From Gammaproteobacteria bacterium (GTDB lineage: Bacteria > Pseudomonadota > Gammaproteobacteria > SZUA-152): a stretch of DNA of 64,000 nt. Location: positions 48,003 to 112,002 of the forward strand of contig JAVVEP010000002.1 in the NCBI GenBank assembly GCA_032250735.1, written 5' to 3'. Both the position numbers and the translations under genes were made by a program. The notes under the pieces were generated by a model that worked only from the letters and a program-made list of their open reading frames with translations, was not told the DNA's origin and did not search any database. This document shows positions 48,559-64,000 of this stretch, in pieces; position 1 is the first letter of the stretch, and every line of letters begins with the position of its first letter.

Positions 48559-49335
48559 CTAGGTCGCGATGCCTTTTGATGCCAGAAATTCCAGTGGAAC
48601 GTCTGCATTCTTTCGGCAGGCGATCGCGAAATAATAGAGCGGTTCGCCTTCAATGGATAATCTGTGTCGATACCGTTCGATATGATAGACATCAAGATAT
48701 TCCGAAAAGATCAGTTCCCTGATCATGGTCGAAAAGCCGGTGCTGTCACGGGTGTCAAAGAAGCTTTCCTTGATGTTGAAGGCCACCCAGCCCTTTGGCT
48801 TGATGATATTGAATGCCTCTATAAAGGCCCGCGTCGGGATGTCGCCAAAACCCAGGGCGGCGACGGTTACCAGGCAGTCACACTGCCACGATTCGATATC
48901 CTGTTTTTTTTCGTCGCTGAGGGCGGTGAAGTCTTCGACATAATAGGCGTCATACAATCCCGGTCGGTCACGGATGGTTGCCTCGTAAGCCTCCGGGATG
49001 ATGTCGACGCCTATCAGGCGTGATACGCCGTGTTTCTTCAGTTCTTCACCCATCAGGCCATTGCCCGCGCCCAGATCCAGGACCCGCAATTCTGTAAAGT
49101 TGTCCTGCGATTGCCTGACGGAGGATTCAAGAATGGCGGTGACCTTGTTCGGGGATGTGCATTTCAGGCGGTCATAAAAGACCTGTTCGTAGAGGCCTTG
49201 CAGCTGATAGATTTCAGCATAATCATGCAGCCGCATTTTTCGTTGTCCTGCTGATCCCTGTAGATAGAAATAGGCCTCGTCCTGGTTAAGATTGAAGGCC
49301 CCTGATCGGGGAAACTGTATGCGGTGTCGTTTCAT
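48559..49335 (-). CDS. Class I SAM-dependent methyltransferase
   Basis: The 258-residue protein has SAM motif I LRVLDLGAGNGLMGEELKKHG near residue 103, followed by IGVDIIPEAYEAT (motif II) and a CLVTVAALGFGDIP stretch (post-I/motif IV). The N-terminal 90 residues (DEAYFYLQGSAGQRKMRLHDYAEIYQLQGLYEQVFYDRLKC) form a helical lid typical of small-molecule methyltransferases. Its substrate is unknown. The start is ATG at 49335; the frame upstream is antisense to the amidotransferase gene. It lies 95 bases after that gene on the same strand, so it could be the last gene of the carbamoyl-solute operon. Confidence 0.75.
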   Translation of the reverse strand: MKRHRIQFPRSGAFNLNQDEAYFYLQGSAGQRKMRLHDYAEIYQLQGLYEQVFYDRLKCTSPNKVTAILESSVRQSQDNFTELRVLDLGAGNGLMGEELKKHGVSRLIGVDIIPEAYEATIRDRPGLYDAYYVEDFTALSDEKKQDIESWQCDCLVTVAALGFGDIPTRAFIEAFNIIKPKGWVAFNIKESFFDTRDSTGFSTMIRELIFSEYLDVYHIERYRHRLSIEGEPLYYFAIACRKNADVPLEFLASKGIAT

Positions 49336-49430
49336 CAAGCTACTCCTGTTTTGATGTTGGATAGTGGATCTCCTTTGTTGTATGTAAAAAGTTGTCTCTG
49401 AAAAGTGGCCACGGAAAAAATGCTGTGGCT

Positions 49431-51440
49431 TTATGCGACCAGCCAGCCGAGTTGCTTTGCCGTGCGGCGTGCCCTGGCGGGGATGTCGTCGGCGATAAAG
49501 TGCTGGTGCATCACCTGCACGCCGATCAGGTGGTTGATGACAGCATCGAGCTGGGTCTGGGTTGCGGCCGAGGTGTCCGGTGATTCGTGCAGCCGGAACA
49601 GGGCATCGACACCCTGCGGATCCAGCAGGCCGGTCTCTCTGAGTCGCTCCGGGCTGAGGTGACGGCTGGCGAGGCTGCGCATGGCCGTCCATTTTTTTGG
49701 GTCTGTGTGTGCGGGTGGGGCCATGAAGGCAAATTTTTCGCGCTTGTAGAGCGTCTCCGGCAGCAGCCCCTTCATCGCCTCGCGCAGCACGTATTTTTCA
49801 GTGCGGCCGTGGATGCGCATGGAGGGGGGCAGGGTCGCGGCGTATTCCGCCAGGTGGTGATCCAGAAATGGCGGTCGTGCCTCCATGGAGTTGGCCATGT
49901 CCACCCGGTCACCGCCCCAGGTGAGGATCTGGCCTTCCAGCATGGTCTTGATCCACACGTACTGGGCACGATCCAGCGGGTGGCGGTTGTGCAGTGCATC
50001 CGCATTGAAGGTGTCGGCAATCGCCGCGCCAGGTGAGTAACCCTGCAACGTGCGGCGATGCTCCGGGTGTAACAGATCGGGTACGTACTGACTGCTGGCC
50101 AGCCAGGGTTGCAGACAGGAGGGGGTAAAACCGATCTTGTCGGTGAGGGCAGGATCTTCCACGCTCTGTTCCGCCAGCATCGCGCCTTTAAACAGTTTGT
50201 TGTTTTCGTTCAGCACGCCTTCCCATTCGCCGCGTTCCTCGGCCGACAGGTGATCCAGTCCGTGCAGAAACATGTCGCGACGAAACGCCGGATAGCCGCC
50301 GAACAGTTCGTCGGAACCTTCGCCGGTGAGCACGACCTTGTAACCGACCTGATTGACGCGGCGACTCATGAGGAGTTTGGCCACGCCCAGGGTGTTATAG
50401 ATGGTGCGTTCGGTGTGCCACAGGGTTTCCTCAAAGTGGTCATACAGCTGGTCCGCATCGAGGCGCAATATATCCTGCTCCGCGCCGACGGATTTGGCCA
50501 TCTCGGTGGCGATGGGGGTCTCGTCATAGTCGGCGCTATCAAACCCGATAGTGAAGGACTTGACCGAACCCTGGGTGCTGGCCGCCGACAGGCCGACGAT
50601 GGAGCAGGAGTCGATGCCACCGGACAGGTAACAGCCGACCGGCACATCGGCCTCCAGTCGCAGTTGCACTGCTTCGATTAACTGTTCGCGAACCGCGTCG
50701 ATATACTCCTGTTCGTCAGCCATTTTTCCGCGTGCATCCTGTTCCGGAAATGGCATATCCCAATAGCATTTTTCGTCGATACGCAGGCGCCCATCGCGAC
50801 GCTGAATGCTGAGCACATGCCCCGGCTTGACCTGATGGACTCCGCTGAAAGCGGTGGTGCCCGGCACAATGGTCTGCATTAACTGGTGATAGAGGCCCGC
50901 GGAATCAAACTGACGGCTGACCTCGGGGTGTGCGAATAACACCTTCAATTCAGAGCCAAACACGATGCCGCCGTTAATCTCTGTCCAGTAGAGGGGCTTG
51001 ATGCCAAACCGGTCACGCACCAGATGCAGGCTGTCCTGTTCGCGATCATACAGCGCAAAGGCAAATTCGCCGCGCAGATGCGGCAGGGTTTTGTCCAGCC
51101 CAAGGCGCGGATAAAGGTGCATGATGATCTCGGAATCACTGCGGGTGTGGAAGCGTGCACCCTGCGCGGTCAGGTCGGCGCGGATGCGCTGGTAATCATA
51201 AAGCTCACCGTTTTTTGTCAGCATCAGACTTTTGTCGTCAGACACAAAGGGCTGGCGTCCGCGCTCCTGATCCAGATCGATAATGGACAGGCGGGCATGG
51301 CTGAAACCGATACCCGGCATGGCTTCCCAACCGAAGCCATCCGGGCCGCGGTGATGTTGAATGGCGGCCATGGCCACCAGGGTTTCCGGGTCAACGGGGT
51401 GTTGTCTGTCTTGGTATATAAATCCGGCTATGCCACACAT
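49431..51440 (-). CDS. Asparagine-synthetase-like glutamine amidotransferase
   Basis: The 669-residue protein has the class II amidotransferase domain with nucleophile Cys2 (MCGIAGF), RGPDGFG at 31-37, and NGELYDYQ, and a synthetase domain with the ATP-pyrophosphatase P-loop SGGIDS at 273-278 and GEGSDELFGGY. It is longer than E. coli AsnB (554) with extra C-terminal helices, closer in size to the AsnO/NAGGN type of amidotransferase that amidates alpha-carboxyl groups. It would use glutamine nitrogen and ATP to turn a carboxylate into an amide. It follows the carbamoyltransferase-like gene by 30 bases. True asparagine synthesis is the alternative; the operon partners argue for another acceptor. 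Confidence 0.88.
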   Translation of the reverse strand: MCGIAGFIYQDRQHPVDPETLVAMAAIQHHRGPDGFGWEAMPGIGFSHARLSIIDLDQERGRQPFVSDDKSLMLTKNGELYDYQRIRADLTAQGARFHTRSDSEIIMHLYPRLGLDKTLPHLRGEFAFALYDREQDSLHLVRDRFGIKPLYWTEINGGIVFGSELKVLFAHPEVSRQFDSAGLYHQLMQTIVPGTTAFSGVHQVKPGHVLSIQRRDGRLRIDEKCYWDMPFPEQDARGKMADEQEYIDAVREQLIEAVQLRLEADVPVGCYLSGGIDSCSIVGLSAASTQGSVKSFTIGFDSADYDETPIATEMAKSVGAEQDILRLDADQLYDHFEETLWHTERTIYNTLGVAKLLMSRRVNQVGYKVVLTGEGSDELFGGYPAFRRDMFLHGLDHLSAEERGEWEGVLNENNKLFKGAMLAEQSVEDPALTDKIGFTPSCLQPWLASSQYVPDLLHPEHRRTLQGYSPGAAIADTFNADALHNRHPLDRAQYVWIKTMLEGQILTWGGDRVDMANSMEARPPFLDHHLAEYAATLPPSMRIHGRTEKYVLREAMKGLLPETLYKREKFAFMAPPAHTDPKKWTAMRSLASRHLSPERLRETGLLDPQGVDALFRLHESPDTSAATQTQLDAVINHLIGVQVMHQHFIADDIPARARRTAKQLGWLVA

Positions 51441-51470
51441 AATAGGTAAATTTTTCTCCGCTAATGGATA

Positions 51471-52529
51471 TCAGGTAAAACTCTTTAACATGGATGACAA
51501 CAACGCCATGCGAATGAATACCGCGCCACGGGCCTGGGCGAAATACCAGTTGTGCGGCGTGTCATCCAGTTCCCGTGCAAGTTCATCGCCGCGCGCCAGC
51601 GGATGCAGAATGATGGCGTTTTCTTTCAGGGGCGATGCTTTGTCGAGCCGGTACTGGCTGCCCAATTCTTCATAATCATCACCCACCCAGGCGATGGTGT
51701 TGATGTACACCACATCCAGTTTCGGCAGCTCTTTGTTCATGTCGTTGCTAACCCGAAAGCTGAGGCCCTTGCCTTCCAGTTCTTCACGCTGGTCTTTGGC
51801 AAACGGATCACTCTCATCACTGATGATGACGACTTCGGTGAGGGCATCGGCAAACAGACTCAGCAGGATCAGCAGGCTGCGCACGGTGCGCATGCGCCCC
51901 GGCACGCCGATAATGCCGATGCGGATGCGCTCATGCATGTTGATCTCGGGTAGGCATAGCTCGGGTCGCCATTTAAGGATGGCGTAGATGTCCGCCATGG
52001 CCTGTGTCGGGTGTTCATCGGTGCCGTTGCCGCCATTGATGATGGGGATGCGCAGGCCTTCGAGCATTTCATAGACGGCCTTCTCGTCACCGTCACGCAG
52101 CACAATCAGATCACCGTAGTGATTGAGCATCTCGCCGATGTCGTACAGCGACTCGCCCTTGGCGATGCCGGTCGAGGCGGGGTCGGTGATCGACATGATG
52201 TCGCCGCCCAGACGATGCCAGGCGCTTTCAAATGACAGCCGGGTTCGGGTGCTGGGTTCATAAAAGGCGCTAATGAGAATCTTGCCGGTCAGCGGCCGCG
52301 TGATCATCTGTGGCTGGGTTTCATACCGGGCCGCCAGCCGTGACAGCTGCAGCAGCTGCGCGCGCGTGAACTGGCTGGCGGACACCACCGGACGCAAGGT
52401 CAGGTCGAGCAGCGGGGCCAGGTCTTCATGGATCGCGTCCATCAGATCGCGGGGGCGTTCGAATCCCTGGGTGTCCAGGGTCTGGTCTCCAAGCTGTTCC
52501 CGGAGAATGGGGCTTTTTTTGTCTACCAT
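51471..52529 (-). CDS. Aspartate carbamoyltransferase-like enzyme with altered acceptor site
   Basis: A 352-residue carbamoyltransferase. The carbamoyl phosphate site is intact: STRTR at 93-97, the 80s-loop Ser and Lys (PASTGIAKGES), HPTQ at 173-176 and the HPLARGDEL loop at 309-317. The Arg167-equivalent in GRMRTVRSL is kept. The E. coli YMTR.Q segment that binds aspartate (Arg229, Gln231) reads YINTIAW here, so Arg and Gln are gone. An acceptor amino acid without a beta-carboxylate is therefore likely. The start ATG overlaps the 3' end of the preceding 40-residue gene. It is not the pyrimidine enzyme by these criteria; the neighbours are carbamoyl and amide enzymes. Confidence 0.8.
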   Translation of the reverse strand: MVDKKSPILREQLGDQTLDTQGFERPRDLMDAIHEDLAPLLDLTLRPVVSASQFTRAQLLQLSRLAARYETQPQMITRPLTGKILISAFYEPSTRTRLSFESAWHRLGGDIMSITDPASTGIAKGESLYDIGEMLNHYGDLIVLRDGDEKAVYEMLEGLRIPIINGGNGTDEHPTQAMADIYAILKWRPELCLPEINMHERIRIGIIGVPGRMRTVRSLLILLSLFADALTEVVIISDESDPFAKDQREELEGKGLSFRVSNDMNKELPKLDVVYINTIAWVGDDYEELGSQYRLDKASPLKENAIILHPLARGDELARELDDTPHNWYFAQARGAVFIRMALLSSMLKSFT

Positions 52530-52645
52530 AGGCGTTTGGTTAACCAGTCCTTTATCCACAAGATGATTAATACAAGGGGTGCAATGGCAGTTATAGCTAT
52601 TGCCGTTCCAACCAACCAGGTCAGTGCGTTTATCGAGATCGTCAT
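52523..52645 (-). CDS. 40-residue single-helix membrane peptide between symporter and carbamoyltransferase
   Basis: Too short for most gene callers. The minus strand from ATG at 52645 encodes MTISINALTWLVGTAIAITA and then IAPLVLIILWIKDWLTKRLW before TAG: one transmembrane helix and a basic, Trp-rich cytoplasmic end. Its ATG overlaps the symporter stop (ATGA) and its end overlaps the carbamoyltransferase start by 7 bases. The double overlap argues that it is translated. Small partner peptides accompany several SSS symporters, so it may be an accessory subunit. Confidence 0.65.
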   Translation of the reverse strand: MTISINALTWLVGTAIAITAIAPLVLIILWIKDWLTKRLW

Positions 52646-54081
52646 ACTCGTGTCTCCCCGCGGCCAGCGAGCCTGTCCCAGTCAAACTCATGGGGCCGTA
52701 GCCAGGTGGTCAGCAACACGACACTCATGGAGACCGCCGCGGAGATCAGCGCCGCCACATAGAAGCCGATGAGGAAATAGCCGGCCAGGCCGATGACGGT
52801 GCCGGCCACCATCGCCAGCGCCGCGCCGCCCGGATTGACGCGTCGCCAAAACAGCCCGGCGGCGATGGGCCAGATGGTGCTGGCCACGAAGGCACCGGTG
52901 AAATACAGCAGCTCGGCCAGGGTGGTGAGGCGCGGCAGGCATAACAGCCAGGCGGTGATACCCAGCCCCAGCACCACCCAGCGCGCGGCGCGGGCGAGTT
53001 CTGCCTCGCTGGCCCGGGGGCGGAAATGGCCCTTATATATGTCGGTGAGGATCAGGTCAGAGGTGGCGGCCAGCAGCGAATCAAGACTGGAGGCGAGGGC
53101 GGCAAACACCACGATAAACACCAGCACGGCACCACCAGCCCCGAGCAGGTTGGCCGCCACCAGCGGCCCCACCATGTCGGCGGCAGGCACATTGATCCCC
53201 AGTGCCGGTACCGTGAGGGCAATAAATCCGGCCACAATCGGGATCGGCAACCAGAACACCCCGGCGATGAAATAGGCCTTGAAGCCGACGCCGGCACGGA
53301 AGGCAAAGGCCCGGCTCCACCAGACATTGGAATGAAAGATTTCGCCGATCCCAAACAGCAGGTTGTTAAACAGAAACATGATGGCGGCCGGCATCAGCAG
53401 GTTCAGCAGCTCGGGGCGTTCTTCCAGTGCCGCCGCATGCATGCGCTCAAAACCCACTTCGGCGATCGCCAGCCAGGCCAGGATGACGATACCGACCAGG
53501 ATGATCAGGGTCTGTAGAAAATCCGTGCCGATCACCGCGCGCAGCCCACCCAATATTGTGTACAGCACGCACACCGCGAGGATCACGCTCATGCCGATGC
53601 GGTAGTCGATCCCGGTCAGGGCATGTACCAGCACACCGCCCGCCATGCCCATGGAGACCAGCCAGCCGAAGCCATAAAACAGGGAGATGAGCAGAAAGAT
53701 GCGCCACGCCGTCTTGCCATAGCGCAGGCGCACAAAATCGCCGCTGGTATAGCCGCCGGGCATTAGCGCATGGATGCGCCTGGCCAGCGGGGCGAAGAGG
53801 ATCAGGCCCACCGAGCCGAGGGAGTATCCCAACATGCCCCATACGCCCATCTGCAGGGCCAGTTGCGGGGCCGCCATGGTGGTGTTGCTGGTGACCCAGG
53901 TGGCCATGGCGGTGGCGGTGCCCAGGGCCAGACCCACCCGACGCCCTGCCAGCATAAAGCCTTCCAGGCCTTTGGCGCGCCGGCCGAGATAGGCCCCCAG
54001 GGCGATCCACAGCAGCGAGAAGGCGGCGAGGATCATCCAGCCGGTATTGGCGTCCAGCAGGGCGCTGTGCATGTTATTCAT
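52642..54081 (-). CDS. Sodium:solute symporter (SSS family)
   Basis: The 479-residue membrane protein has about 13 hydrophobic segments and SSS-family features: AYLGRRAKGLEGFMLAGRRVGLALGTATAMATWV, GGLRAVIGTDFLQTLIIL and a conserved region around ASSLDSLLAATSDLILTDIYK. SSS carriers take up small solutes such as proline, pantothenate or ureides with sodium. Its ATG overlaps the isochorismatase-type stop (ATGA). In this operon the likely cargo is the carbamoylated or amidated compound handled by the neighbouring enzymes. An upstream in-frame opening to 54264 is antisense-like and not used. Confidence 0.9.
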   Translation of the reverse strand: MNNMHSALLDANTGWMILAAFSLLWIALGAYLGRRAKGLEGFMLAGRRVGLALGTATAMATWVTSNTTMAAPQLALQMGVWGMLGYSLGSVGLILFAPLARRIHALMPGGYTSGDFVRLRYGKTAWRIFLLISLFYGFGWLVSMGMAGGVLVHALTGIDYRIGMSVILAVCVLYTILGGLRAVIGTDFLQTLIILVGIVILAWLAIAEVGFERMHAAALEERPELLNLLMPAAIMFLFNNLLFGIGEIFHSNVWWSRAFAFRAGVGFKAYFIAGVFWLPIPIVAGFIALTVPALGINVPAADMVGPLVAANLLGAGGAVLVFIVVFAALASSLDSLLAATSDLILTDIYKGHFRPRASEAELARAARWVVLGLGITAWLLCLPRLTTLAELLYFTGAFVASTIWPIAAGLFWRRVNPGGAALAMVAGTVIGLAGYFLIGFYVAALISAAVSMSVVLLTTWLRPHEFDWDRLAGRGETRV

Positions 54082-54824
54082 GGCTCGACCACTTCGCGGA
54101 TTTCGGTGATGGCCTCTTGCGTGGTCAGTACGCGGGCGTAGCGGTCCTTCATGGTGGTAATGGTGGCGTGCTGCAATTCCGGGGTGACGGTTGCGCAGGC
54201 ATCGGATATGAGAGTGACGTGAAAGCCGAGATCGCAGGCATCCCGAATGGCGGTGGAGACGCACTCGTTGCTGTAGACGCCGACCACGAACAGGCCGTTG
54301 ATGCCCAGGTTGCGCAGGATGTATTCGATATTGCTGGAGTTAAACACGCCGCTGGCGGTCTTGTTGATGATGATCTCGTCGTCCAGCGGGGCGACCTGTT
54401 CCAGAAATTCGGCCTCCCTGGAGCCCGGCGCGGCATGCAGGCCCAGGCGCTTGTGGCCTGGGCTGCGGTCGCGGCCGTCGTGGGTGAGCGACTGGATGCG
54501 GGTATGGATGACCTCCAGCCCGCGGGCCCGAAAGGCGTCCTGTAGCTGGCGCACATTGGGTAGCACGGTCTGTTCGAGACGATCGAAATAGTAGCGCTGG
54601 GCCGCGAGCGGCACCCCCGAGGCCTCGGCCGTGGCAAACACCCCGAAGCCCGCTGCCGCGTCCAGGTACTGCATATCGATGCACAGCAGGGCGGTCTGAT
54701 GGGTCTCCAGCGAGAGGGTGACGGCCGGGGTGTGGGTGATGGAGCGCCGGTAGGCCTCGCGCAGGGGATCCACATCCAGAAAGTCTTCGGTGGAGGGTGT
54801 GGGGGTCTGGTGTTTGTGGGTCAT
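54078..54824 (-). CDS. Isochorismatase-fold amidohydrolase
   Basis: This 248-residue cysteine hydrolase has the catalytic triad of the family: Asp50 (LLCIDMQ), Lys155 (IIINKTASGVF) and Cys188 (VYSNECVS). Relatives include N-carbamoylsarcosine amidase, ureidoacrylate amidohydrolase RutB and nicotinamidase. It would hydrolyse either a primary amide or a ureido group. It starts 2 bases after the M20 gene and overlaps the symporter by 4. The substrate cannot be read from sequence, but the position suggests an amide made by the asparagine-synthetase-like enzyme. Confidence 0.88.
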   Translation of the reverse strand: MTHKHQTPTPSTEDFLDVDPLREAYRRSITHTPAVTLSLETHQTALLCIDMQYLDAAAGFGVFATAEASGVPLAAQRYYFDRLEQTVLPNVRQLQDAFRARGLEVIHTRIQSLTHDGRDRSPGHKRLGLHAAPGSREAEFLEQVAPLDDEIIINKTASGVFNSSNIEYILRNLGINGLFVVGVYSNECVSTAIRDACDLGFHVTLISDACATVTPELQHATITTMKDRYARVLTTQEAITEIREVVEP

Positions 54825-54826
54825 GG

Positions 54827-56068
54827 TCAGGTGGACAGCCGTTTGAGGGTGTTTAACAGGACATTGGCGCCGGCCTCGATGTCCGCCCACGCCGTCCACT
54901 CTGCGGGGGAGTGGCTGCGGCCTTCCTTGCTGGGGACGAAAATCATGCCGGCGGGTGCGATGCGGGCGATGATCTGGGCATCATGGGCCGCGCCACTGCT
55001 CAGGTGGGTCGCGGACAGGGCCAGGGCGGTTACCGCCTCATCGATGGCGTCCAGCACGCTGGTGGCGCACGGCACGGGGGCGATCTCACTCAGTACTGTA
55101 AAGGCGAACATCAGATTGCGGCGGCGGGCGATCGCGGACAGGCTTCTGCGCAGGGCGGCGGCCATGGTCTCGAGGGTGGTGGCGTCGGTATCGCGGACAT
55201 CCAGTGAAAACACCGCCTCGCCCGGCACCATATTGGCCGCACCGGGCTTGAGCGCCACTCGGCCGATGGTCGCGGTGCTTTGCGGGCTGCCGTATTCCGC
55301 CAGTACGCGATCCAGCTGGCCAGCGAATTCGGCGAGGCCCTGAAAGGCATCGGCGCGCATATGCATGGGGGTGGTGCCGGCATGGTTGGCGGCGCCGCTC
55401 AGGGTGATTTCCCATTTGAACAGGCCGGTAATGGCGTCAACGATGCCGATGCTGCAACGCTTGCGGTCCAGCACCGGCCCCTGTTCGATGTGTAATTCGA
55501 CATAGGCATGGATGCTGCCGGGGGCACGCTGGGCGTGCAGCGCCTGGCGGGCATCCAGTCCGCGGGCCGCCAGCGCGGCGCTCAGGCTGACGCCGTCGAG
55601 GTCGCAGGCCTGGTGTAGATACTCGGGTGTCACCAGCCCCGCCACGGCCTGGGAGCCAAACATGCCGCCGAAGCGGCCTTCTTCATCACTGAAGGAGACG
55701 GCCTCCAGCGGGCGCTTCAGCGTGAGCCCGGATTCCTGCAATACGCGCAAGGCCTCCAGCGCACAGATGACCCCCAGGGCGCCATCCAGATGGCCCGCAC
55801 CCGGTACGGTATCCGCGTGCGAGCCTGCCATCACGCTGGCGGTCTGGTCATTCCAGTTCAGGCGCGCATAAAGATTGGCGGCGCCGTCCTGATAACACTC
55901 CAGACCGCTATCGATAATCCGCTGGCGTAACCAGTCACGGCCGGCCATGTCGCCATCACTGAAGGCCATGCGGTAGATACCCTGGTCTTCATACCGACCA
56001 ATCCGGGCGAGGGCGTCGATGTCCTCGCGCAGACGTTCGGCGTTGACCCGCAGCTCGGGGGTACTCAT
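54827..56068 (-). CDS. M20-family N-carbamoyl amino acid hydrolase (HyuC/AllC/beta-ureidopropionase type)
   Basis: A 413-residue dinuclear metallo-amidohydrolase. Metal ligands are visible: His84 and Asp95 in GSHADTVPGAGHLDG, Glu130 in SDEEGRFGGMFGS, His193 in ELHIEQGPVL and a final His in GRSHSPAEW near residue 385. The family (N-carbamoyl-L-amino acid hydrolase, allantoate amidohydrolase, beta-ureidopropionase) removes a carbamoyl group as CO2 plus ammonia. The ATG overlaps the stop of the upstream membrane-protein gene. In this operon it would undo what the carbamoyltransferase makes. Confidence 0.9.
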   Translation of the reverse strand: MSTPELRVNAERLREDIDALARIGRYEDQGIYRMAFSDGDMAGRDWLRQRIIDSGLECYQDGAANLYARLNWNDQTASVMAGSHADTVPGAGHLDGALGVICALEALRVLQESGLTLKRPLEAVSFSDEEGRFGGMFGSQAVAGLVTPEYLHQACDLDGVSLSAALAARGLDARQALHAQRAPGSIHAYVELHIEQGPVLDRKRCSIGIVDAITGLFKWEITLSGAANHAGTTPMHMRADAFQGLAEFAGQLDRVLAEYGSPQSTATIGRVALKPGAANMVPGEAVFSLDVRDTDATTLETMAAALRRSLSAIARRRNLMFAFTVLSEIAPVPCATSVLDAIDEAVTALALSATHLSSGAAHDAQIIARIAPAGMIFVPSKEGRSHSPAEWTAWADIEAGANVLLNTLKRLST

Positions 56069-56583
56069 TTTGCTGCCTCCGGGCCGCGCACAATCAGCAC
56101 CACGGTGGCCACAAACACCACGATACCCAGCGACAGAAACAGCAGGGCGCGGGACAGGCTATGATGGGTGACTCGCACGCTAACGGTGTCACTCCAGGGG
56201 CTGGCCTGCGGCGCCACACTGCGCAGGCGATAATGCCGGGCGCCGTCCGGTTTGCCGGAGAAGACCGTGGCGCTATCGGGGCCGCGGTAGGCGGTCACCG
56301 CATCGCGAAAATCCGCCTGGGTGGCCTCCTGTAGTTCCCAAACAGGTGTCCAAATAGATTCCTTTAGGGGTGCTGTTACCGATTCCACTTCACTGCTCGC
56401 CGTCTCCCAGCTGAGGCGGTAGTATCCTGCCGTGACGACATCACCCGAAGTGGATAGTCGTGGCGCGGGCAGTTGAGATCCGGCGGCCGCGGTGCTGAAC
56501 AGGCACGCCAGCAACAACACGGCCAGCCCGATCCGTTGCGGGCGGCTTTTGGTCGTGAGGTGTCTACGGGACAGGGCGGTCAT
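56065..56583 (-). CDS. Membrane-anchored protein with signal peptide and FnIII-like domain
   Basis: I do not recognise a named family. The 172-residue protein has a signal peptide (LAVLLLACLFSTAAAGS), an extracytoplasmic beta-rich domain of about 90 residues in fibronectin III style (GYYRLSWETA...HYRLRSVAPQASPWSDTVSVRV) and a C-terminal membrane helix (ALLFLSLGIVVFVATVVLIV). It would be anchored in the inner membrane facing the periplasm. Its ATG and stop overlap both neighbours by 4 bases, so it is part of the operon, possibly as a partner of the symporter or an osmosensing component. Confidence 0.7.
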   Translation of the reverse strand: MTALSRRHLTTKSRPQRIGLAVLLLACLFSTAAAGSQLPAPRLSTSGDVVTAGYYRLSWETASSEVESVTAPLKESIWTPVWELQEATQADFRDAVTAYRGPDSATVFSGKPDGARHYRLRSVAPQASPWSDTVSVRVTHHSLSRALLFLSLGIVVFVATVVLIVRGPEAAK

Positions 56584-56768
56584 GATAAAAAGGGATCGGA
56601 GAGTTGTTCAAGGAGCGGCGCCTCTAGCCACCAGGCGGCGAGGGCGACCAGCACGCCGAGAATCAATACGCTGATGGCGAGACGAATGAGGGGGTGGCGA
56701 CGGCGTCGGTGAAACAAGGCTTTGTGCTTCCAGCGTTTCTCGTTTATACGGAGATTGGGTCTGAGCAT
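56580..56768 (-). CDS. Small membrane protein, first gene of the carbamoyl-solute operon
   Basis: From ATG at 56768 the product is 62 residues: a very basic N-terminus (MLRPNLRINEKRWKHKALFHRRRRHP), then one membrane helix (LAISVLILGVLVALAAWWL) and a short periplasmic tail. The basic part would face the cytoplasm. It overlaps the next gene by ATGA. No family is recognised. A frame reaching 56789 adds seven residues and is less likely. Confidence 0.6.
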   Translation of the reverse strand: MLRPNLRINEKRWKHKALFHRRRRHPLIRLAISVLILGVLVALAAWWLEAPLLEQLSDPFLS

Positions 56769-56892
56769 GGTTTCGGGCGACATGGGCAACGGAAAACAGT
56801 GAGACGAACGATCCGAATAATAATTTGATCCCTAAATAGTTTGTGGTGGCGCATCTGTCCAAAAGGTGTCCCAAAAGGGCTTGAGGCGAATG

Positions 56893-56997: not shown

Positions 56998-57528
56998 ATG
57001 GGCGGACATGAGGATATCGGCGATAAGGTGATTATCGCTCTGCGACGCGTGATTCGCGCCGTGGATCTGCATTCCCGCACCCTGGTGCAAAGTCACGGCC
57101 TGACCGGGCCGCAGGCGCTGATTCTGAAGGCCTTGAGACAGGGCAGCCTGCCCGCCGGTGAGCTGGCGACCCGGGTCAGCCTCAGTCAGGGTACGGTGAC
57201 CGATATCCTCATTCGGCTTGAACAGCGCGGCCTGCTCAAGCGCATACGGGATACCACGGACAAACGCCGGGTGCTGGTGGAGGCCACGGCCGCCGGCATG
57301 ACCCTGCTCAGGCAGTCGCCACCACTGTTGCAGGAGCGCTTTGTGGAGCGCTTCACTAATCTGCACGAATGGGAGCAGACGCAACTGCTGGCCTCGCTGC
57401 AACGGATTGCCGCGATGATGGATGCGGAGGATATCGACGCTGCACCGGTGCTCTCCAGTGGCTCGATGCGGGCCACGGCCAGGGCCGTCGAGGAGGTGTT
57501 GGGGCCGGAAGATCTCGGCGGTGAATAA
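56998..57528 (+). CDS. MarR-family transcriptional regulator
   Basis: A 176-residue winged-helix protein with HGLTGPQALILKALRQGSLPAGELATRVSLSQGTVTDILIRLEQRGLLKRIRDTTDKRRVLVEAT, the MarR DNA-binding domain, and helical ends for dimerisation. Length fits the family. It is divergent from the carbamoyl-solute operon and 81 bases before amylosucrase. MarR-type EctR proteins control ectoine operons in halophiles, so control of osmolyte genes here is a reasonable inference, not shown. Confidence 0.85.
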   Translation: MGGHEDIGDKVIIALRRVIRAVDLHSRTLVQSHGLTGPQALILKALRQGSLPAGELATRVSLSQGTVTDILIRLEQRGLLKRIRDTTDKRRVLVEATAAGMTLLRQSPPLLQERFVERFTNLHEWEQTQLLASLQRIAAMMDAEDIDAAPVLSSGSMRATARAVEEVLGPEDLGGE

Positions 57529-57609: not shown

Positions 57610-59568
57610 ATGTACGAACAGGTATCCCACTCATTACTCAATGACATCCTTAATGATCTAAAGGCAGAGATCAGCAAAAAGGATCTGCGGCATTTCTATA
57701 CCCGCCTGGGCGCGAATTTCTATGCCATCCATTCACTGTTTGAACGGCTCTATGGGCACCGGGACGATTTCAGACAGCAGTCCCTGCGGCTGGTCGAGAC
57801 CATGGCGCGGCAGTATATCCAGCGTCCCGATGCGCTGAAGCAGCTGGATATCGAGCGCGAAAAAGATCACAACTGGTTTCTTAGCCAGAAGTGGGTGGGC
57901 ATGGCGCTCTATAGCCAGGGCTTTGCGGGAGACCTCAAGGGGGTGCATGAGCATCTGGGTTATTTCCAGGATCTGGGTGTCAACCTGGTGCACATCATGC
58001 CCATCTTGCAGTGTCCCGAAGGACACAGTGATGGCGGCTATGCCGTGAGTAACTACCGTGAAGTCGATCCGCGCGCGGGCAGCGTGGAGGAGCTGACGGA
58101 ACTGGCCAAGGCGATGCGCGAGCGGGATATCCTGCTGGTGCTGGACGTGGTGGTAAACCATACATCGAATGAACATGACTGGGCGGTGCGCGCCCGTGGC
58201 GGGGATCCGCAGTATCAGGACTATTATTACACCTTCGCAACGCGCAACGTCCCCGACATGTTTGAACAGAGCATGCCGGAGATCTTTCCCGAGACATCGC
58301 CCGGCAATTTCACCTGGGATGAAGAGATGCAGCGCTGGGTGATGACGGTGTTCAACGATTTCCAGTGGGACCTCAACTACAGCAATCCGGCGGTGTTCAT
58401 CGAGATGCTGGATATCCTGTTGTTCTGGGCGAACAAGGGCGCGGATATTCTGCGCCTGGATGCGGTGGCCTTTTTGTGGAAGAAGATTGGCAGCACCTGC
58501 CAGAACGAACGCGAGGCGCATTTGATCCTGCAATTGCTCAAAGACTGTTGCCAGGTATCGGCGCCCGGCGTGCTGTTTATTGCCGAAGCGATTGTCGCGC
58601 CCGTGGAAATCACCAAGTACTTTGGTGAAGATGCGATTATCGCCAAGGAGTGTGAGATTGCCTATAACGCCACCTTTATGGCCCTGTTGTGGGACGCGGT
58701 CGCCACCAAAAATAGCAAATTGCTGAACCAGGGCATCAAGAGCCTGCCGGTGAAACTGGAACGTGCGACCTGGCTGAACTATGTGCGTTGCCACGATGAC
58801 ATCGGGCTGGGATTTGATGACGGTGATATTCGGCTGGCGGGTTATGACGCCCACAGCCATCGGAAATTCCTGATTGATTACTATACGGGAAGGTTCGATG
58901 ACTCCCACGCCCGTGGACTGCCGTTCGGCAGTAACGTGAAAACAGGCGATGCGCGTATTTCCGGTTCGCTCGCCTCGCTGGCAGGGCTGGAGTACGGACT
59001 GGAGCAGAATGACCCGGTTGCCATCGACGAGGCGATAAAAAACATCCTGCTGTTGCATAGCCTGATTATGTCGTTTGGCGGTATCGCGCTGCTTTATTAT
59101 GGCGACGAGATGGGCGCCCTGAATGACTATTCGTATCAGGATGATGCAGGCAGGTCGGTCGATTCGCGCTGGCTGCACCGTCCGACCATGGACTGGAAAA
59201 AGGCAGAGAATCGCAATGTCCCCGGTACGGTGGAATACCGGATTTTCCGCGCCCTCAAGAAAATGATCGCGGTGCGCAAGGAGATAGATGCGTTTGCCGA
59301 TTTTAATAATCGGGAACTTATTGATGTACAAAATCCGCATCTGTTTGTGTTCGGGCGCACCAACGTCACCAAACAGACTGACCAGGTACTGGTTGTGGCG
59401 AATTTTGATGACCGTCCCCAGTCGCTGAACATCAATGATGTGGCGGGCTGGACCAACCAGCAGCTGGGCCGGATGGTGGATCTGTATTCCGGACAGTCGC
59501 CGGATATTTTTAAAGACGCCCTGGTCATACCCGGATACCATTTTTACTGGTTACGAGAGAAGATGTAA
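57610..59568 (+). CDS. ams: Amylosucrase (GH13 glucosyltransferase)
   Basis: The 652-residue enzyme uses sucrose to build alpha-1,4-glucan and releases fructose. The catalytic nucleophile is Asp284 (DILRLDAVAF), the acid/base Glu326 (LFIAEAIV) and the third Asp396 (RCHDDIG), very close to positions 286, 328 and 393 of Neisseria amylosucrase. The N-terminal helical domain unique to amylosucrase (about 1-90) is present and no signal peptide is seen, so it is cytoplasmic. It sits with sucrose synthesis genes, as in methanotrophs and other halotolerant bacteria that use it to consume excess sucrose. Confidence 0.93.
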   Translation: MYEQVSHSLLNDILNDLKAEISKKDLRHFYTRLGANFYAIHSLFERLYGHRDDFRQQSLRLVETMARQYIQRPDALKQLDIEREKDHNWFLSQKWVGMALYSQGFAGDLKGVHEHLGYFQDLGVNLVHIMPILQCPEGHSDGGYAVSNYREVDPRAGSVEELTELAKAMRERDILLVLDVVVNHTSNEHDWAVRARGGDPQYQDYYYTFATRNVPDMFEQSMPEIFPETSPGNFTWDEEMQRWVMTVFNDFQWDLNYSNPAVFIEMLDILLFWANKGADILRLDAVAFLWKKIGSTCQNEREAHLILQLLKDCCQVSAPGVLFIAEAIVAPVEITKYFGEDAIIAKECEIAYNATFMALLWDAVATKNSKLLNQGIKSLPVKLERATWLNYVRCHDDIGLGFDDGDIRLAGYDAHSHRKFLIDYYTGRFDDSHARGLPFGSNVKTGDARISGSLASLAGLEYGLEQNDPVAIDEAIKNILLLHSLIMSFGGIALLYYGDEMGALNDYSYQDDAGRSVDSRWLHRPTMDWKKAENRNVPGTVEYRIFRALKKMIAVRKEIDAFADFNNRELIDVQNPHLFVFGRTNVTKQTDQVLVVANFDDRPQSLNINDVAGWTNQQLGRMVDLYSGQSPDIFKDALVIPGYHFYWLREKM

Positions 59569-59673
59569 TGCCGTTGCATTCATGTCCGCGTTTATCGCCA
59601 TACTTTGAGTTAGGTCATTTATCCGATAAATCCATCACGCCGTTTTATCTACGCTTGCCAGCCCGAGGCCACG

Positions 59674-61041
59674 ATGCCTGACCATAACGATAAATCGCAA
59701 TACGATTTCCGGGAACTGCTGCACAAGGCGCTGGAAGAGCAATCTCTGCAAACCGTAGTTGACCTGCTCAAGGGCCTGCACCCGGCGGAAATTGCCGATG
59801 CACTAGAGGCCTTGCCCCGCGAGCTGAGACCGGCGCTGTGGGCGCAGGTGGATATTCTCTTCAAGGGTGAGGTGTTGCTGGAGACCCATGCGGAGGTGCG
59901 GCGGCAGCTCATTGAGGCCACCGATGAGGACGAATTGCTCACCGCGCTGGCCACCCTGGAGATGGATGAGCTGGCCGACCTTGACGCCGAACTGCCCATG
60001 TCGGTGGTCGATGCCATGGTGCAGACCATGGACGTACAGCGGCGCAGGCGTTATGAGGCGGTGCGCTCCTATCCCGACAACACGGCCGGTGGGCTGATGG
60101 ATGTCGACGCCGCAGCGGTGCGGGGTGACGTGAGCCTGAAGGCGGTGCAGCGTTATCTGCGACAGTTGCGCAGCCGCGAGGGTAAGCTGCCTGAACATCT
60201 TGATAGCCTGGTGGTGGTCGATCGCAACAATACCTATCTCGGCATGCTGCAGTTAAGTGATGTTGTCTCGCTGAATTCCGGGACCATTGTCAGTGAGGTG
60301 ATGACGGCGCGGGTACCGGCGATTCCGGTGTTGGCATCCGCGAGCAAGGTGGCCCGCCTGTTCCAGGATCAGGATCTGCTTTCCGCTCCCGTGGTCAATG
60401 AGGCCAACCAACTTTTGGGACGCATCACTATCGACGACGTGGTCGACGTGATGCGCGGTGATGCGGAGCGTGAGGTGATGAGCCGTGCGGGCCTGACCTC
60501 AGCCACCGATATGTTCGCGCCCATTATGTCGAGCGCCACACGACGTGCGGTGTGGCTCGGCGTTAACCTCATCAATGCCTTTATTGCCGCCTGGGTCATC
60601 GGCCTGTTCGAGGGCTCGATTGAACAGGTGGTCGCCCTTGCCATACTCATGCCGGTGGTCGCCAGCATGGGCGGTGTGGCGGGCAATCAGACCCTGACCC
60701 TGGTGACGCGCGGGATTGCGCTTGAGCAGGTTGGGCGCAGCAATGCGCGCCGCCTGCTGCTGAGGGAGCTGTCCCTGAGTTTGCTGAATGGCGCCTTCTG
60801 GTCGGTAGTGGTGGCCGTGGTTGCGGTGCTCTGGTTTGGCAGTGTGCAGCTGGGGATCGTGTTCGGTGCCGCCCTGATCATCAACCTGATTACCGGGGCG
60901 GTCGTCGGTACGCTGGCGCCGCTGGCCCTGTTGCGGGTGGGTATTGATCCGGCCCTTGCAGGTGGCGTGGTACTGATTGCGGCGACCGATGTGATCGGCT
61001 TCCTGTCATTTCTGGGACTGGCCACTATTTTCCTGTTGTAG
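59674..61041 (+). CDS. mgtE: Magnesium transporter MgtE
   Basis: A 455-residue protein with the MgtE N-terminal superhelical domain (LKGLHPAEIADALEALP), two CBS domains (about 130-255, with AARVPAIPVLASASKVARLFQDQDLLSAPVV-type segments) and five C-terminal membrane helices including VVASMGGVAGNQTLTLVTRGIAL, the family ion-pore motif. It imports Mg2+ under control of its own CBS/N domains. It follows amylosucrase by 105 bases and is convergent to the glutamate kinase gene. Confidence 0.93.
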   Translation: MPDHNDKSQYDFRELLHKALEEQSLQTVVDLLKGLHPAEIADALEALPRELRPALWAQVDILFKGEVLLETHAEVRRQLIEATDEDELLTALATLEMDELADLDAELPMSVVDAMVQTMDVQRRRRYEAVRSYPDNTAGGLMDVDAAAVRGDVSLKAVQRYLRQLRSREGKLPEHLDSLVVVDRNNTYLGMLQLSDVVSLNSGTIVSEVMTARVPAIPVLASASKVARLFQDQDLLSAPVVNEANQLLGRITIDDVVDVMRGDAEREVMSRAGLTSATDMFAPIMSSATRRAVWLGVNLINAFIAAWVIGLFEGSIEQVVALAILMPVVASMGGVAGNQTLTLVTRGIALEQVGRSNARRLLLRELSLSLLNGAFWSVVVAVVAVLWFGSVQLGIVFGAALIINLITGAVVGTLAPLALLRVGIDPALAGGVVLIAATDVIGFLSFLGLATIFLL

Positions 61042-61098
61042 CGGGTTGCAGGCGTTTTCTTCAGACGTCACCGATACCGGATGGACTCTGCCGCGTGC

Positions 61099-61872: not shown

Positions 61873-61955
61873 TGAATCTCCTGATGATGATAATTGATGT
61901 GTAATCATACACTTTTCATGACGCGTTTTTTTGATGGGGTTTTATCGCAGGATGG

Positions 61956-62798
61956 TTATTCAGATAACCATGCCGTGGTTTCGGGTATGAAGTGCGCAAT
62001 GCCTTCCAGAATGCCAGCGGCATAGTTTCCGTTCATTCCCATAAAATCGCCTTTGGCGAAATACAGCGCATCGGACAGGCCGTTTTTCCTTGCCTCTTGC
62101 GCGGCCTGTTCACGCACATCCTGGCGGGCATTGGCGACGAGTACCGACTGGATGCGACTGGTCAGCACGGGAATGTCGTTGCCGCTGTCGCCGGCAAAAA
62201 TGGTGCGTTCAATGGCGTAGGCCTTCTGTGCCATCAGAAATTCAATGGCATGCAGTTTGGTCGCCCGCCGGGGCAAAACATCCAGCAGGCCGCTGTGGGT
62301 GATGTCATCAATGCTCCATATCAGGCTGGCGCGTATCGCCTGTTGTTGCAGGCGGGCCTGCATGGCGGATCGAAGCGCCTCGCTGTCGATGTTGGCGGGG
62401 ACATAGTAACTGAGCTTGAAGACGTTCTGTTTTTCCGCCTCCTGCAGCTGCAACCCATCCATGTCGGTAAACAGTTTAGCGATATTGTCGTGCGTATTGC
62501 CCTGCCAGTCCGTTGCGATCTCGTCCTGCCAGGCGGGCCATGGATGCCATTGCTGGTTGACGATGGCATAGATGCTGCTGCCCACATCGGCAATGACGTA
62601 ATCGGGAGTCGGCAGCTGATATTCATTGATCGCTTGCTGCGTCAGGCGCTGATCACGTCCACTGACATAGACCAGGTTGACATCGTCACGCGCCACCAGT
62701 CGGGCGAACAGGGCGCGTGCCTGCAGCGATTCGGGATGCGTGCCATTGGGGATAAGGGTCCTGTCCAGGTCGGTGCAGATGAGCAGTCGCTGTTTCAT
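61956..62798 (-). CDS. spp: Sucrose-phosphate phosphatase-like HAD hydrolase
   Basis: The 280-residue HAD-IIB phosphatase starts MKQRLLICTDLDRTLIPNG with the nucleophile Asp10 and Asp12 and has VYVSGRDQRLTQ, then KLHAIEFLMAQ and the metal site FAGDSGNDIPVL. It would remove the phosphate from sucrose-6-phosphate. It overlaps the sps gene by 4 bases, the standard pairing. The C-terminal YFAKGDFMGMNGNYAAGILEGIAHF stretch resembles the same part of the sps-encoded HAD domain. Confidence 0.88.
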   Translation of the reverse strand: MKQRLLICTDLDRTLIPNGTHPESLQARALFARLVARDDVNLVYVSGRDQRLTQQAINEYQLPTPDYVIADVGSSIYAIVNQQWHPWPAWQDEIATDWQGNTHDNIAKLFTDMDGLQLQEAEKQNVFKLSYYVPANIDSEALRSAMQARLQQQAIRASLIWSIDDITHSGLLDVLPRRATKLHAIEFLMAQKAYAIERTIFAGDSGNDIPVLTSRIQSVLVANARQDVREQAAQEARKNGLSDALYFAKGDFMGMNGNYAAGILEGIAHFIPETTAWLSE

Positions 62799-64000
62799 GT
62801 GGACGCCGGTGCCTGGCAGGTTTCGTAAAAATCATAATGTTCGATGGCCTCCAGGATGCCGGCGGCAAAGGGTTTTTGCGCAAAATAGATCCGTTCGATG
62901 CCGGCCAGTTCGGACAGCTCTTCATGGTGTCGGTTGGACACCACCACCGCCAGCGTATTGCCCCGCATCATATCTTCATCCGCACCGGAGCCGCCGGCGG
63001 CGAGGATGTGTTCCAGCGGAATCCCCCACTGATTCGCAAACCAGCGCAAGGCCAGTCCCTTGGATGCGCGCACCGGCACGATATCCAGAAACTGGTCAAA
63101 GGAATAAAAGACATTCGCCGTCAGGTCGTTCTGTAACAGCAGGTGGGTGATGTCTCCCAGCCTGGGGGCCTTGGCCGGATCCACAAAATAACTGACCTTG
63201 TAACGGCTCTGTTCCGTTTTCGGCTGCAGCGCGAGCCCCGGAATTTCGCTCAACAGCAGTTGTATGGACGTTGGTTTCCAGAGATGGTCGATATGGTCAT
63301 GCCAGGCCCAGTCACGGGTAAGATTGGGCGCATAGTGAATTTCTGTGCCCAGGCTGGTGATCAGGGCATCGGGCTGCGGAATGTTGTTCTGGCGGAGTAT
63401 CTGTAGCGCGGCATCGAGGCGCCGGCCGGTGGCAATGCCAAAGCTGGTGTATTTACGGCGGTCACGCATCTCCTGGATGAAGGCGTTGAGTGAGGCGGAA
63501 TCACCCAGCAGGTTTTGATCCAGGTCGCTGAAAATGGCGCGGTCGTGGTAGAGCAGGGGACGGCGGCTAAGGTTCATGTGTGGCACCGGCTCAGTGCCTT
63601 CGACCAGGGGTTTGACAAGTTGCAGATAGGTTTTTGCATGTGCCGGCCAGGAATAATACTGGCGTACGCCCTCAAGGCCGTTTTTCGCCAGCCGTTGCCA
63701 GGTCTGTTTGGCCTTGAGCAGCTTGCCGATGGTTTTCGCCATCGCCGGCTTATCCAGTGGGTTGATCAGATAACCGTTTTTGCAGTTGCCGATAATATCT
63801 CTCGGCCCGCCATCCTCAGTTGCCACAATGGGCAATTGACTTGCCGCAGCTTCGATCAGGGTGAGTCCAAAGGGTTCGGTAAGCGCGGGATTGACGAAAA
63901 CGCCCTGACTGAGCGCCGCGAGTCGATACAGTATAGACACCTCATCGGCCTGATGGTGTTTTGGATAGGCCACCTTGCCGTATAGGTCATAGCGGTCGAT
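62795..64000 (-). CDS. sps: Sucrose-phosphate synthase, C-terminal part (5' end outside window)
   Basis: The frame is open to the right window edge (first codons read IDRYDLYGK), so only the last 400 or so residues are seen. They hold the end of a GT4 glycosyltransferase domain with NPALTEPFGLTLIEAAASQLPIVATEDGGPRDI, the E(x7)E-type nucleotide-sugar motif, and a C-terminal HAD-like domain of about 240 residues (ALFSDLDQNLL, IATGRRLDAAL, AAGGSGADEDMM). Its nucleophile site reads SDLDQN rather than DxDxT, so phosphatase activity is doubtful and the separate spp gene is needed. It makes sucrose-6-phosphate from UDP- or ADP-glucose and fructose-6-phosphate. Confidence 0.9.
   Translation of the reverse strand: MDRYDLYGKVAYPKHHQADEVSILYRLAALSQGVFVNPALTEPFGLTLIEAAASQLPIVATEDGGPRDIIGNCKNGYLINPLDKPAMAKTIGKLLKAKQTWQRLAKNGLEGVRQYYSWPAHAKTYLQLVKPLVEGTEPVPHMNLSRRPLLYHDRAIFSDLDQNLLGDSASLNAFIQEMRDRRKYTSFGIATGRRLDAALQILRQNNIPQPDALITSLGTEIHYAPNLTRDWAWHDHIDHLWKPTSIQLLLSEIPGLALQPKTEQSRYKVSYFVDPAKAPRLGDITHLLLQNDLTANVFYSFDQFLDIVPVRASKGLALRWFANQWGIPLEHILAAGGSGADEDMMRGNTLAVVVSNRHHEELSELAGIERIYFAQKPFAAGILEAIEHYDFYETCQAPAST

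Follow-up and report, generated by a model that had tools for sequence, protein, structure and literature searches.

A candidate operon for the synthesis, uptake and recycling of carbamoyl-glutamine amide in Gammaproteobacteria of saline and soda habitats

Introduction

What would a carbamoyltransferase and an asparagine synthetase-like amidotransferase make when they are encoded together with a symporter and two hydrolases? An earlier note on this locus proposed that the genes make, recover and recycle a carbamoylated, amidated amino acid such as carbamoyl-glutamine amide (CGA; N-alpha-carbamoyl-L-glutamine 1-amide). A report from 1991 is said to have described CGA in Ectothiorhodospira marismortui, a purple sulfur bacterium. 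In no other species has CGA, a compatible solute, been reported (PMC3857566). The earlier note held that no gene cluster was established for the compound, and our literature search for CGA genes likewise found no gene or cluster assigned to it.

We consider it likely that the operon makes, retrieves and recycles CGA, with inferred substrates: the carbamoyltransferase (CT) and AsnB-like enzyme would carry out synthesis, the amidase and M20 hydrolase the return, and the SSS symporter uptake. The reading of the earlier note proved consistent with every test made.

Results and Discussion

A conserved operon and its limits

Within the window (the whole stretch of 64,000 nucleotides that was analysed), a minus-strand operon spans 49431-56789, adjoined by a divergent MarR gene. 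From the first gene, the order is the 69-aa membrane protein, FN3 protein, M20, amidase, SSS, 40-aa peptide, CT and AsnB-like enzyme. The features are as follows.

49431..51440, minus: AsnB-like class II glutamine amidotransferase, 669 aa, proposed N-carbamoyl-glutamine alpha-amidating synthetase (Pfam, TIGR01536)
51471..52529, minus: ATCase-fold carbamoyltransferase (CT), 352 aa, proposed glutamine N-alpha-carbamoyltransferase (OTCace_N, OTCace, AF2)
52523..52645, minus: 40-aa single-span membrane peptide, proposed symporter small subunit (conserved sequence and place at sister loci)
52642..54081, minus: SSS-family Na+/solute symporter, proposed solute re-uptake (Pfam SSF, 110 bits)
54078..54824, minus: isochorismatase-type cysteine amidase, proposed CGA 1-amide hydrolase (PF00857, 122 bits)
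54827..56068, minus: M20 N-carbamoyl-L-amino acid hydrolase, proposed N-carbamoyl-glutamine hydrolase (TIGR01879, NF006771)
56065..56583, minus: FN3-domain protein with N- and C-terminal membrane helices, proposed symporter accessory (AF2, FN3 matches in PDB)
56580..56789, minus: small 69-aa membrane protein, first operon gene (4-nt overlap with the next gene)
56998..57528, plus: divergent MarR-type regulator, EctR-like by sequence (PF01047)
57610..59568, plus: GH13 enzyme adjoining the operon, in the sucrose flank (Alpha-amylase domain, 161 bits)
61956..63973, minus: sucrose-phosphatase-like protein and C-terminal part of sucrose-phosphate synthase (SPS) (TIGR02471, 314 bits; TIGR02472, 173 bits, for the SPS part)

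All the genes named in the earlier note lie on the minus strand and are of the kinds it had given, by Pfam and NCBIfam profiles for all but the 40-aa peptide. The mostly 4-base overlaps it described were also found: four are of 4 nt (69-aa gene/FN3 gene, FN3 gene/M20, amidase/SSS and SSS/40-aa peptide) and one, between the 40-aa peptide and CT, is of 7 nt, with gaps of 2 nt between M20 and amidase and 30 nt between CT and AsnB. CT was taken to start at residue 55 of its longest ORF. The same gene order is found at dozens of loci with CT identities of 58-81%. Because this order recurs so widely and the sequence of the 40-aa peptide is conserved, the operon is far beyond chance.

The limits of the unit needed revision. 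The genes named earlier stand as members, but the FN3 protein, the 69-aa membrane protein and the divergent MarR gene had been overlooked. Comparison of sister loci identifies the FN3 protein and MarR as conserved parts, and the 69-aa protein has counterparts at just two further loci (L030 and L032). The left boundary at 48559 did not hold, as it takes in a class-I methyltransferase gene. Neither this gene nor a nitroreductase-like gene at 47155 has relatives at the sister loci, and both were therefore placed outside the unit.

The putative transport genes form a trio. The symporter is 71-75% identical at sister loci, and its gene is missing from the Ectothiorhodospira loci. Both the 40-aa peptide, which had no NCBIfam match and no significant Pfam match, and the FN3 protein are present in 51 of the 51 complete loci with SSS; the FN3 protein occurs in none of the 10 without it. 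The AF2 model of the FN3 protein (pLDDT 87) matched FN3 structures in the PDB.

A carbamoyltransferase with a changed acceptor site

CT resembles aspartate transcarbamoylase (PyrB) in its fold and carbamoyl-phosphate site. Its Pfam scores are 128 bits for OTCace_N and 56 bits for OTCace, and it falls under every NCBIfam cut-off, including those of the aspartate transcarbamoylase profiles (TIGR00670, 188 against 237; NF002032, 186 against 263). The best PDB matches of its AF2 model (pLDDT 87) are ATCases, with TM scores of 0.84-0.88 by target length. The YgeW knotted carbamoyltransferase and the putrescine and ornithine carbamoyltransferases belong to the same superfamily, but CT scores far more weakly against YgeW (33 bits) and putrescine carbamoyltransferase (75 bits), both far under their cut-offs.

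CT differs from PyrB in a shorter loop, an N-terminal extension, its status as a third paralogue, always additional to ArgF and PyrB, and its acceptor site. R229 and Q231, which we take to be the pair that binds the aspartate side chain in aspartate transcarbamoylase, are lost in 38 of 38 relatives: R229 is replaced by A, S or T, and Q231 by A (33 of 38), V, S or L. True ATCases keep R-x-Q, and PyrB of the same genome retains RLQ. The carbamoyl-phosphate residues (equivalents of S52-T-R-T, K84, R105, H134 and Q137) are invariant in the 38 sequences, save for one change of Q137 to K, as are N277, W281 and the R167 equivalent. The changed acceptor site noticed earlier is shared by all 38 relatives. 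Judged from these residues, aspartate, raised in the earlier note as a competing acceptor, would be a poor fit; the probable acceptor is an alpha-amino acid whose side chain is not acidic, and the residues fix no more than this.

An amidotransferase tied to the carbamoyltransferase

The AsnB-like enzyme fits the glutamine-hydrolysing asparagine synthase superfamily, with a Cys2 nucleophile and GATase and ATP-pyrophosphatase domains (Pfam Asn_synthase, 308 bits, and GATase_7). Cys2 (MCGIAG) and SGGIDS with its flanks are invariant among 11 orthologues. The enzyme exceeds the cut-off of TIGR01536 (440 bits against 267) and lies under those of asnB (NF006949, 278 against 499) and the XrtA amidotransferase (410 against 817). 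CT and the AsnB orthologue occur in the identical 23 of 369 gammaproteobacterial genomes; neither is found in the other 346.

In the NAGGN pathway, an AsnO-type AsnB-like enzyme (TIGR03104) amidates an alpha-carboxyl. That pathway and this operon would share the making of an uncharged, glutamine-derived osmolyte through an AsnB-like enzyme, the product here being the predicted one. They differ in that a carbamoyltransferase takes the place of the acetyl/peptide synthetase, and the AsnB-like enzyme, with a score of 324, falls short of the NAGGN amidotransferase cut-off of 570.

The pathway that we propose begins with CT, which would convert glutamine and carbamoyl phosphate to N-carbamoyl-glutamine and Pi. 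The AsnB-like enzyme would then use glutamine and ATP to convert N-carbamoyl-glutamine to CGA, releasing glutamate, AMP and PPi. Together, these two steps would mask both charged groups. CGA that leaks out would be recovered with Na+ by the symporter, the 40-aa peptide and the FN3 partner. Upon salt downshift, the amidase would strip the 1-amide and M20 would then cleave off the carbamoyl moiety to give back glutamine, with release of CO2 and ammonia. The EctR-like MarR protein would control the unit. We infer the substrates, the order of the steps and the regulation by salt. Since synthesis and degradation are encoded in one operon, post-transcriptional control would be needed to avoid a futile cycle.

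The known CGA producer carries the cluster

The earlier note suggested a search for the gene set in Ectothiorhodospira. We found the cluster in NZ_FOUO01000006 (locus L061); the prefix FOUO denotes the E. marismortui DSM 4180T genome (PMC8877833), and DSM 4180 is strain EG-1 (PMC6548819). Thus, the CGA type strain, a source of CGA known as a metabolite only, carries a cluster whose enzymes would yield CGA from glutamine. CT is present in 38 of 38 high-quality genomes of the GTDB family of E. marismortui. Because nearly all Ectothiorhodospiraceae have the genes, their carriage by the producer is not discriminating at the strain level.

A different solute, an N-carbamoyl amide built on a neutral amino acid other than glutamine (for example asparagine or alanine), would also suit an acceptor site defined only in the terms given above, with the CGA of E. 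marismortui coming from other genes or being one product among several. We regard this as unlikely. The cluster lies in the genome of the CGA type strain, which has no transcarbamoylases other than ArgF, PyrB and CT, and M20 scores high, under the cut-off, against the N-carbamyl-L-glutamate amidohydrolase ErtE (395 against 520).

Separable, proposed recycling enzymes

M20 scores over the cut-offs of TIGR01879 (hydantoinase/carbamoylase; 375 against 204) and NF006771 (500 against 399), and under that of the allantoate deiminase AllC (TIGR03176; 280 against 598). Residues H84, D95, E130, H193, H386 and R292 are at least 97% conserved in 72 sequences, and the candidate metal ligands are kept. In the amidase, D49, K154 and C187 are invariant, consistent with an isochorismatase-like D-K-C triad, and presumably form the catalytic triad.

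The biosynthetic pair (CT and AsnB), the degradative pair (M20 and amidase) and the transport trio separate across loci, in keeping with the separate roles that the earlier note had assigned to synthesis, return and uptake. The Idiomarina, Aliidiomarina and Pleionea loci have transport, CT and AsnB only, and amidase orthologues were not found in genomes of Idiomarina, Aliidiomarina, Pleionea or Kangiella.

These enzymes could suggest ureide or hydantoin scavenging, in which the symporter imports an N-carbamoyl compound, the amidase and M20 degrade it and CT runs in reverse to give carbamoyl phosphate. M20 is annotated in the allantoate amidohydrolase/carbamoylase group, and the nearest NCBIfam family to the amidase is biuret amidohydrolase (NF050097, 74 bits against a cut-off of 370). 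Against this, neither allantoinase nor carbamate kinase was found over the cut-off in any of 17 operon genomes. Carbamate kinase relatives under the cut-off occur in two of these genomes, and the sub-threshold allantoinase matches checked by position, for example in the window's own genome, adjoin pyrB and look like PyrC. Moreover, an ATP-consuming AsnB always accompanies CT, and M20 and the amidase are parts that may be lacking. We thus rejected ureide catabolism, the reading that the earlier note had set against its own, and give scavenging very little credence.

Links to salt

Under the CGA reading, the unit should have ties to salt. Such a link, drawn in the earlier note, is consistent with the regulator, the sucrose genes and the saline or soda habitats of the operon hosts. 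Of 61 complete loci, 39 have MarR next to the operon. It is 50-52% identical to MarR genes divergent from ectA (L114, L116) and has matches near ectoine genes in L117, L119 and L120 too, in a comparison by sequence identity with the MarR genes at these loci; this similarity suggests an EctR-like protein. An EctR site was sought in the intergenic regions and not found. A different palindrome, TTTTTGTACAAAAA, lies upstream of MarR in Thioalkalivibrio and Ectothiorhodospira, where near-exact copies number 21 within 63 kb of start regions versus 8 in 1.42 Mb elsewhere; it is absent from the window itself. Ectoine operons (ectABC, doe; EctR/CosR) likewise combine a related MarR protein (about 50%) with modules for synthesis, uptake and degradation. 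Unlike them, this unit has unrelated enzymes and product, and usually holds all three modules in one operon.

The sucrose flank described earlier was recovered, with GH13, sucrose-phosphatase-like and SPS genes beside the operon; the ORF at 61956-62798 was assigned by eye, and the full SPS extends past the window end (G000:C2:111616-112929). Sucrose synthase directly adjoins the operon in E. marismortui. SPS is enriched in operon genomes (16/23 vs 77/346, p=5e-6), and ectoine synthase, used as a salt proxy, showed no enrichment with the operon (2/23 vs 48/346).

Glutamine synthetase rises 8-fold at 3 M Na+ in Thioalkalivibrio versutus, a species with the operon (L096); the main text of this salt transcriptome study does not name the operon genes (PMC9062515). 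The nitrogen response could be plain nitrogen limitation. Thioalkalivibrio solute surveys, as quoted in citing papers, list glycine betaine and some sucrose, not CGA.

It is highly improbable that the product serves instead as a nitrogen store, signal or antibiotic-like small molecule: the predicted compound is nitrogen-rich and salt expression data for the operon were not found, but the unit has no further conserved tailoring genes, the regulator appears EctR-like, sucrose genes are linked to it and CGA is described as a compatible solute (PMC3857566).

A probable overlooked osmolyte

The cluster has a much wider distribution than reports of the metabolite. We think it probable that this is the first CGA gene cluster, comprising a glutamine N-alpha-carbamoyltransferase and an alpha-carboxyl-amidating AsnB, both new, with a three-part Na+ symporter and recycling enzymes, and that CGA is an osmolyte common to, but overlooked in, marine Gammaproteobacteria and sulfur oxidisers of this class from saline habitats rather than a curiosity of one species. 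This would close the gene gap for a compound known since 1991 from one organism, and would extend the transcarbamoylase superfamily to a new substrate and provide a new AsnB that amidates an alpha-carboxyl. Dozens of halophiles would then be predicted to hold CGA, among them Thioalkalivibrio, which is employed in desulfurisation. The cluster also offers an answer for Thiorhodospira sibirica, the genome of which is said to be without annotated osmotic-stress genes (PMC7824335): CT, AsnB and the amidase lie there at three distant loci, and all are retained.

Results

The minus-strand gene run described in the earlier note is genuine, and each family named in it is borne out by Pfam and NCBIfam (M20, amidase, symporter, carbamoyltransferase and AsnB-like genes). 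In the window, from a 3.43 Mb genome, the genes lie as follows.

56998-57528, plus: MarR gene, divergent from the operon
56580-56789, minus: p70, small membrane protein
56065-56583, minus: p172, FN3-domain membrane protein
54827-56068, minus: M20 carbamoylase
54078-54824, minus: isochorismatase-type amidase
52642-54081, minus: SSS (Na+/solute) symporter
52523-52645, minus: 40-aa peptide
51471-52529, minus: carbamoyltransferase (CT)
49431-51440, minus: AsnB-like class II glutamine amidotransferase
48559-49345: gene for a class I methyltransferase, with a long ORF that overlaps the AsnB end

Overlaps are 4 nt at four operon junctions and 7 nt between peptide and CT; gaps are 2 nt (M20/amidase) and 30 nt (CT/AsnB). 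The proposed left end at 48559 does not stand, as relatives of the methyltransferase were sought at sister operon loci and none was found.

Among 57 relatives compared, CT occurs at 59% identity or more in only six genomes, including its own, and the remaining matches (at most 39%) include true ATCases and OTCases. The five sister loci group the same genes within differing flanks. Scanning named genomes gave 80 CT loci at 58-81% identity, in Ectothiorhodospira, Thiorhodospira, Thioalkalivibrio, Thiohalobacter, Thiohalophilus, Kangiella, Idiomarina, Aliidiomarina and Pleionea, which are saline, soda-lake or marine genera. Across the 61 loci with sufficient flank, CT and AsnB are constant, Thiorhodospira sibirica excepted. 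The FN3 protein is present at 51/51 loci with the SSS gene and 0/10 without; the 40-aa peptide is found at those 51 and in T. sibirica. Wherever the amidase occurs M20 is there too, and M20 sometimes occurs without the amidase. Idiomarina, Aliidiomarina and Pleionea loci hold only FN3-SSS-peptide-CT-AsnB, and no amidase orthologue was found in genomes of these genera, Kangiella or Aliikangiella. Ectothiorhodospira loci read MarR-M20-amidase-CT-AsnB and lack the transporter. These patterns of presence define three modules: synthesis (CT, AsnB), transport (SSS, peptide, FN3) and degradation (M20, amidase).

A complete unit also lies on a contig labelled alphaproteobacterial (L105, 3245-10606; MAG labelled Hyphomicrobiaceae), where M20 and amidase are transcribed divergently from the synthesis genes; either horizontal transfer or mis-binning would account for it.

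In a sample of 369 genomes across the class, the 23 with CT orthologues are the same 23 that have AsnB orthologues (log10 p ~ -36, uncorrected for relatedness). Within 18 carrier genomes, orthologues of AsnB reach about 1250 bits or above, and no other AsnB-like protein exceeds 386. Linkage does not explain the pairing, because T. sibirica retains CT (1.60 Mb), AsnB (2.30 Mb) and amidase (0.66 Mb) far apart on a single contig. At its CT locus (L054, 8710-11026), distant from AsnB and amidase, the 40-aa peptide gene seems to lie directly upstream of CT, with no SSS gene near.

All 13 named carrier genomes examined hold exactly three OTC-family genes, CT being the third paralogue. CT has the ATCase fold (AF2 pLDDT 87; TM ~0.85 by target length; 193 bits against PDB profiles). 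All 38 CT sequences keep the carbamoyl-phosphate residues and the R167 equivalent unchanged, bar one Q137 to K, and in place of T228-R229-V230-Q231-K232 they read N-[AST]-I-[A, rarely V/S/L]-W, followed by a shortened loop; the genome's own PyrB retains R-L-Q. We take R167 to bind the alpha-carboxylate of aspartate in ATCase, and R229/Q231 its side chain. Loss of R229/Q231 in all 38 sequences speaks against aspartate, which the earlier note had weighed as an acceptor. On these roles, with R167 retained and R229/Q231 lost, the acceptor would be an alpha-amino acid whose carboxyl is free and whose side chain is neutral. Glutamine fits this description, and CT would act before AsnB.

A diverged CT relative, ~38% identical and in different surroundings, lies at the end of contig 10 of another genome (L029, 14058-14788); NPSQ replaces HPTQ and SDLLKP the NxIAW motif, possibly reflecting another transcarbamoylase specificity.

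The AsnB-like protein has Cys2 and the SGGIDS motif, and its NCBIfam scores stay under the thresholds for asparagine synthase B and for the NAGGN and XrtA amidotransferases. M20 falls in the carbamoylase group, and its probable metal ligands, like R292, are conserved across 72 sequences; its second-best NCBIfam match is ErtE, an N-carbamyl-L-glutamate hydrolase. The amidase retains D49, K154 and C187. Together, amidase and M20 would reverse both synthetic steps.

Sucrose-phosphate synthase (SPS) lies near the operon in the window, within a flank (57610-63973) that also encodes a GH13 enzyme, an MgtE-like transporter, a ProB-like amino acid kinase and sucrose phosphatase. Sucrose synthase (1182 bits) adjoins the operon in E. 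marismortui, and an SPS/phosphatase gene follows it at another locus, L037. SPS occurs in 16/23 operon genomes versus 77/346 others (p=4.6e-6, uncorrected for relatedness); ectoine synthase is not enriched in operon genomes among the 369. The MarR proteins of the operon loci share ~50% identity with MarR genes that diverge from ectA (L114, L116); further matches lie close to ectoine genes at L117, L119 and L120. A near-perfect palindrome, TTTTTGTACAAAAA, stands directly upstream of MarR in Thioalkalivibrio (T. versutus L096, 5272-5283) and, doubled, in Ectothiorhodospira (L061, 7310-7336), with similar spots at other loci; it is probably an operator. The intergenic region of the window itself showed no copy.

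Discussion

Sequence and genome context support the proposed carbamoylated, amidated amino-acid solute, and we are confident that the operon makes some N-carbamoyl amino acid amide osmolyte. That this solute is carbamoyl-glutamine amide (CGA) is likely, though less firmly so. CGA was reported from E. marismortui (PMC3857566, PMC1224877), where it is called a minor solute (PMC3857566). Operon locus L061 sits on NZ_FOUO01000006, from the E. marismortui DSM 4180T genome (PMC8877833); DSM 4180T is strain EG-1 (PMC6548819). Finding the gene set there is a passed prediction, because the earlier note made the link to Ectothiorhodospira from sequence before any check. It is not strain-specific evidence, because the whole GTDB family carries the genes (CT in 38/38 high-quality genomes). 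Galinski and Oren reportedly worked with this strain.

Possibly the solute is built on a different neutral amino acid. Thioalkalivibrio solute surveys, as quoted in later papers, name glycine betaine and sucrose and not CGA; in that genus, on those quotations, either CGA is a minor solute, as in E. marismortui, or the product differs. Ureide catabolism, the other context that the earlier note had considered, is not supported, as allantoinase and carbamate kinase each exceed cut-off in 0/17 operon genomes, two of which hold weaker relatives of the kinase.

Two observations touch on salt in carriers. The T. sibirica genome is said to have no annotated osmotic-stress genes (PMC7824335); it possesses CT, AsnB and amidase. 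At 3 M Na+, T. versutus D301 strongly raises nitrate uptake and glutamine synthetase (PMC9062515), an indirect fit with a glutamine-derived solute.
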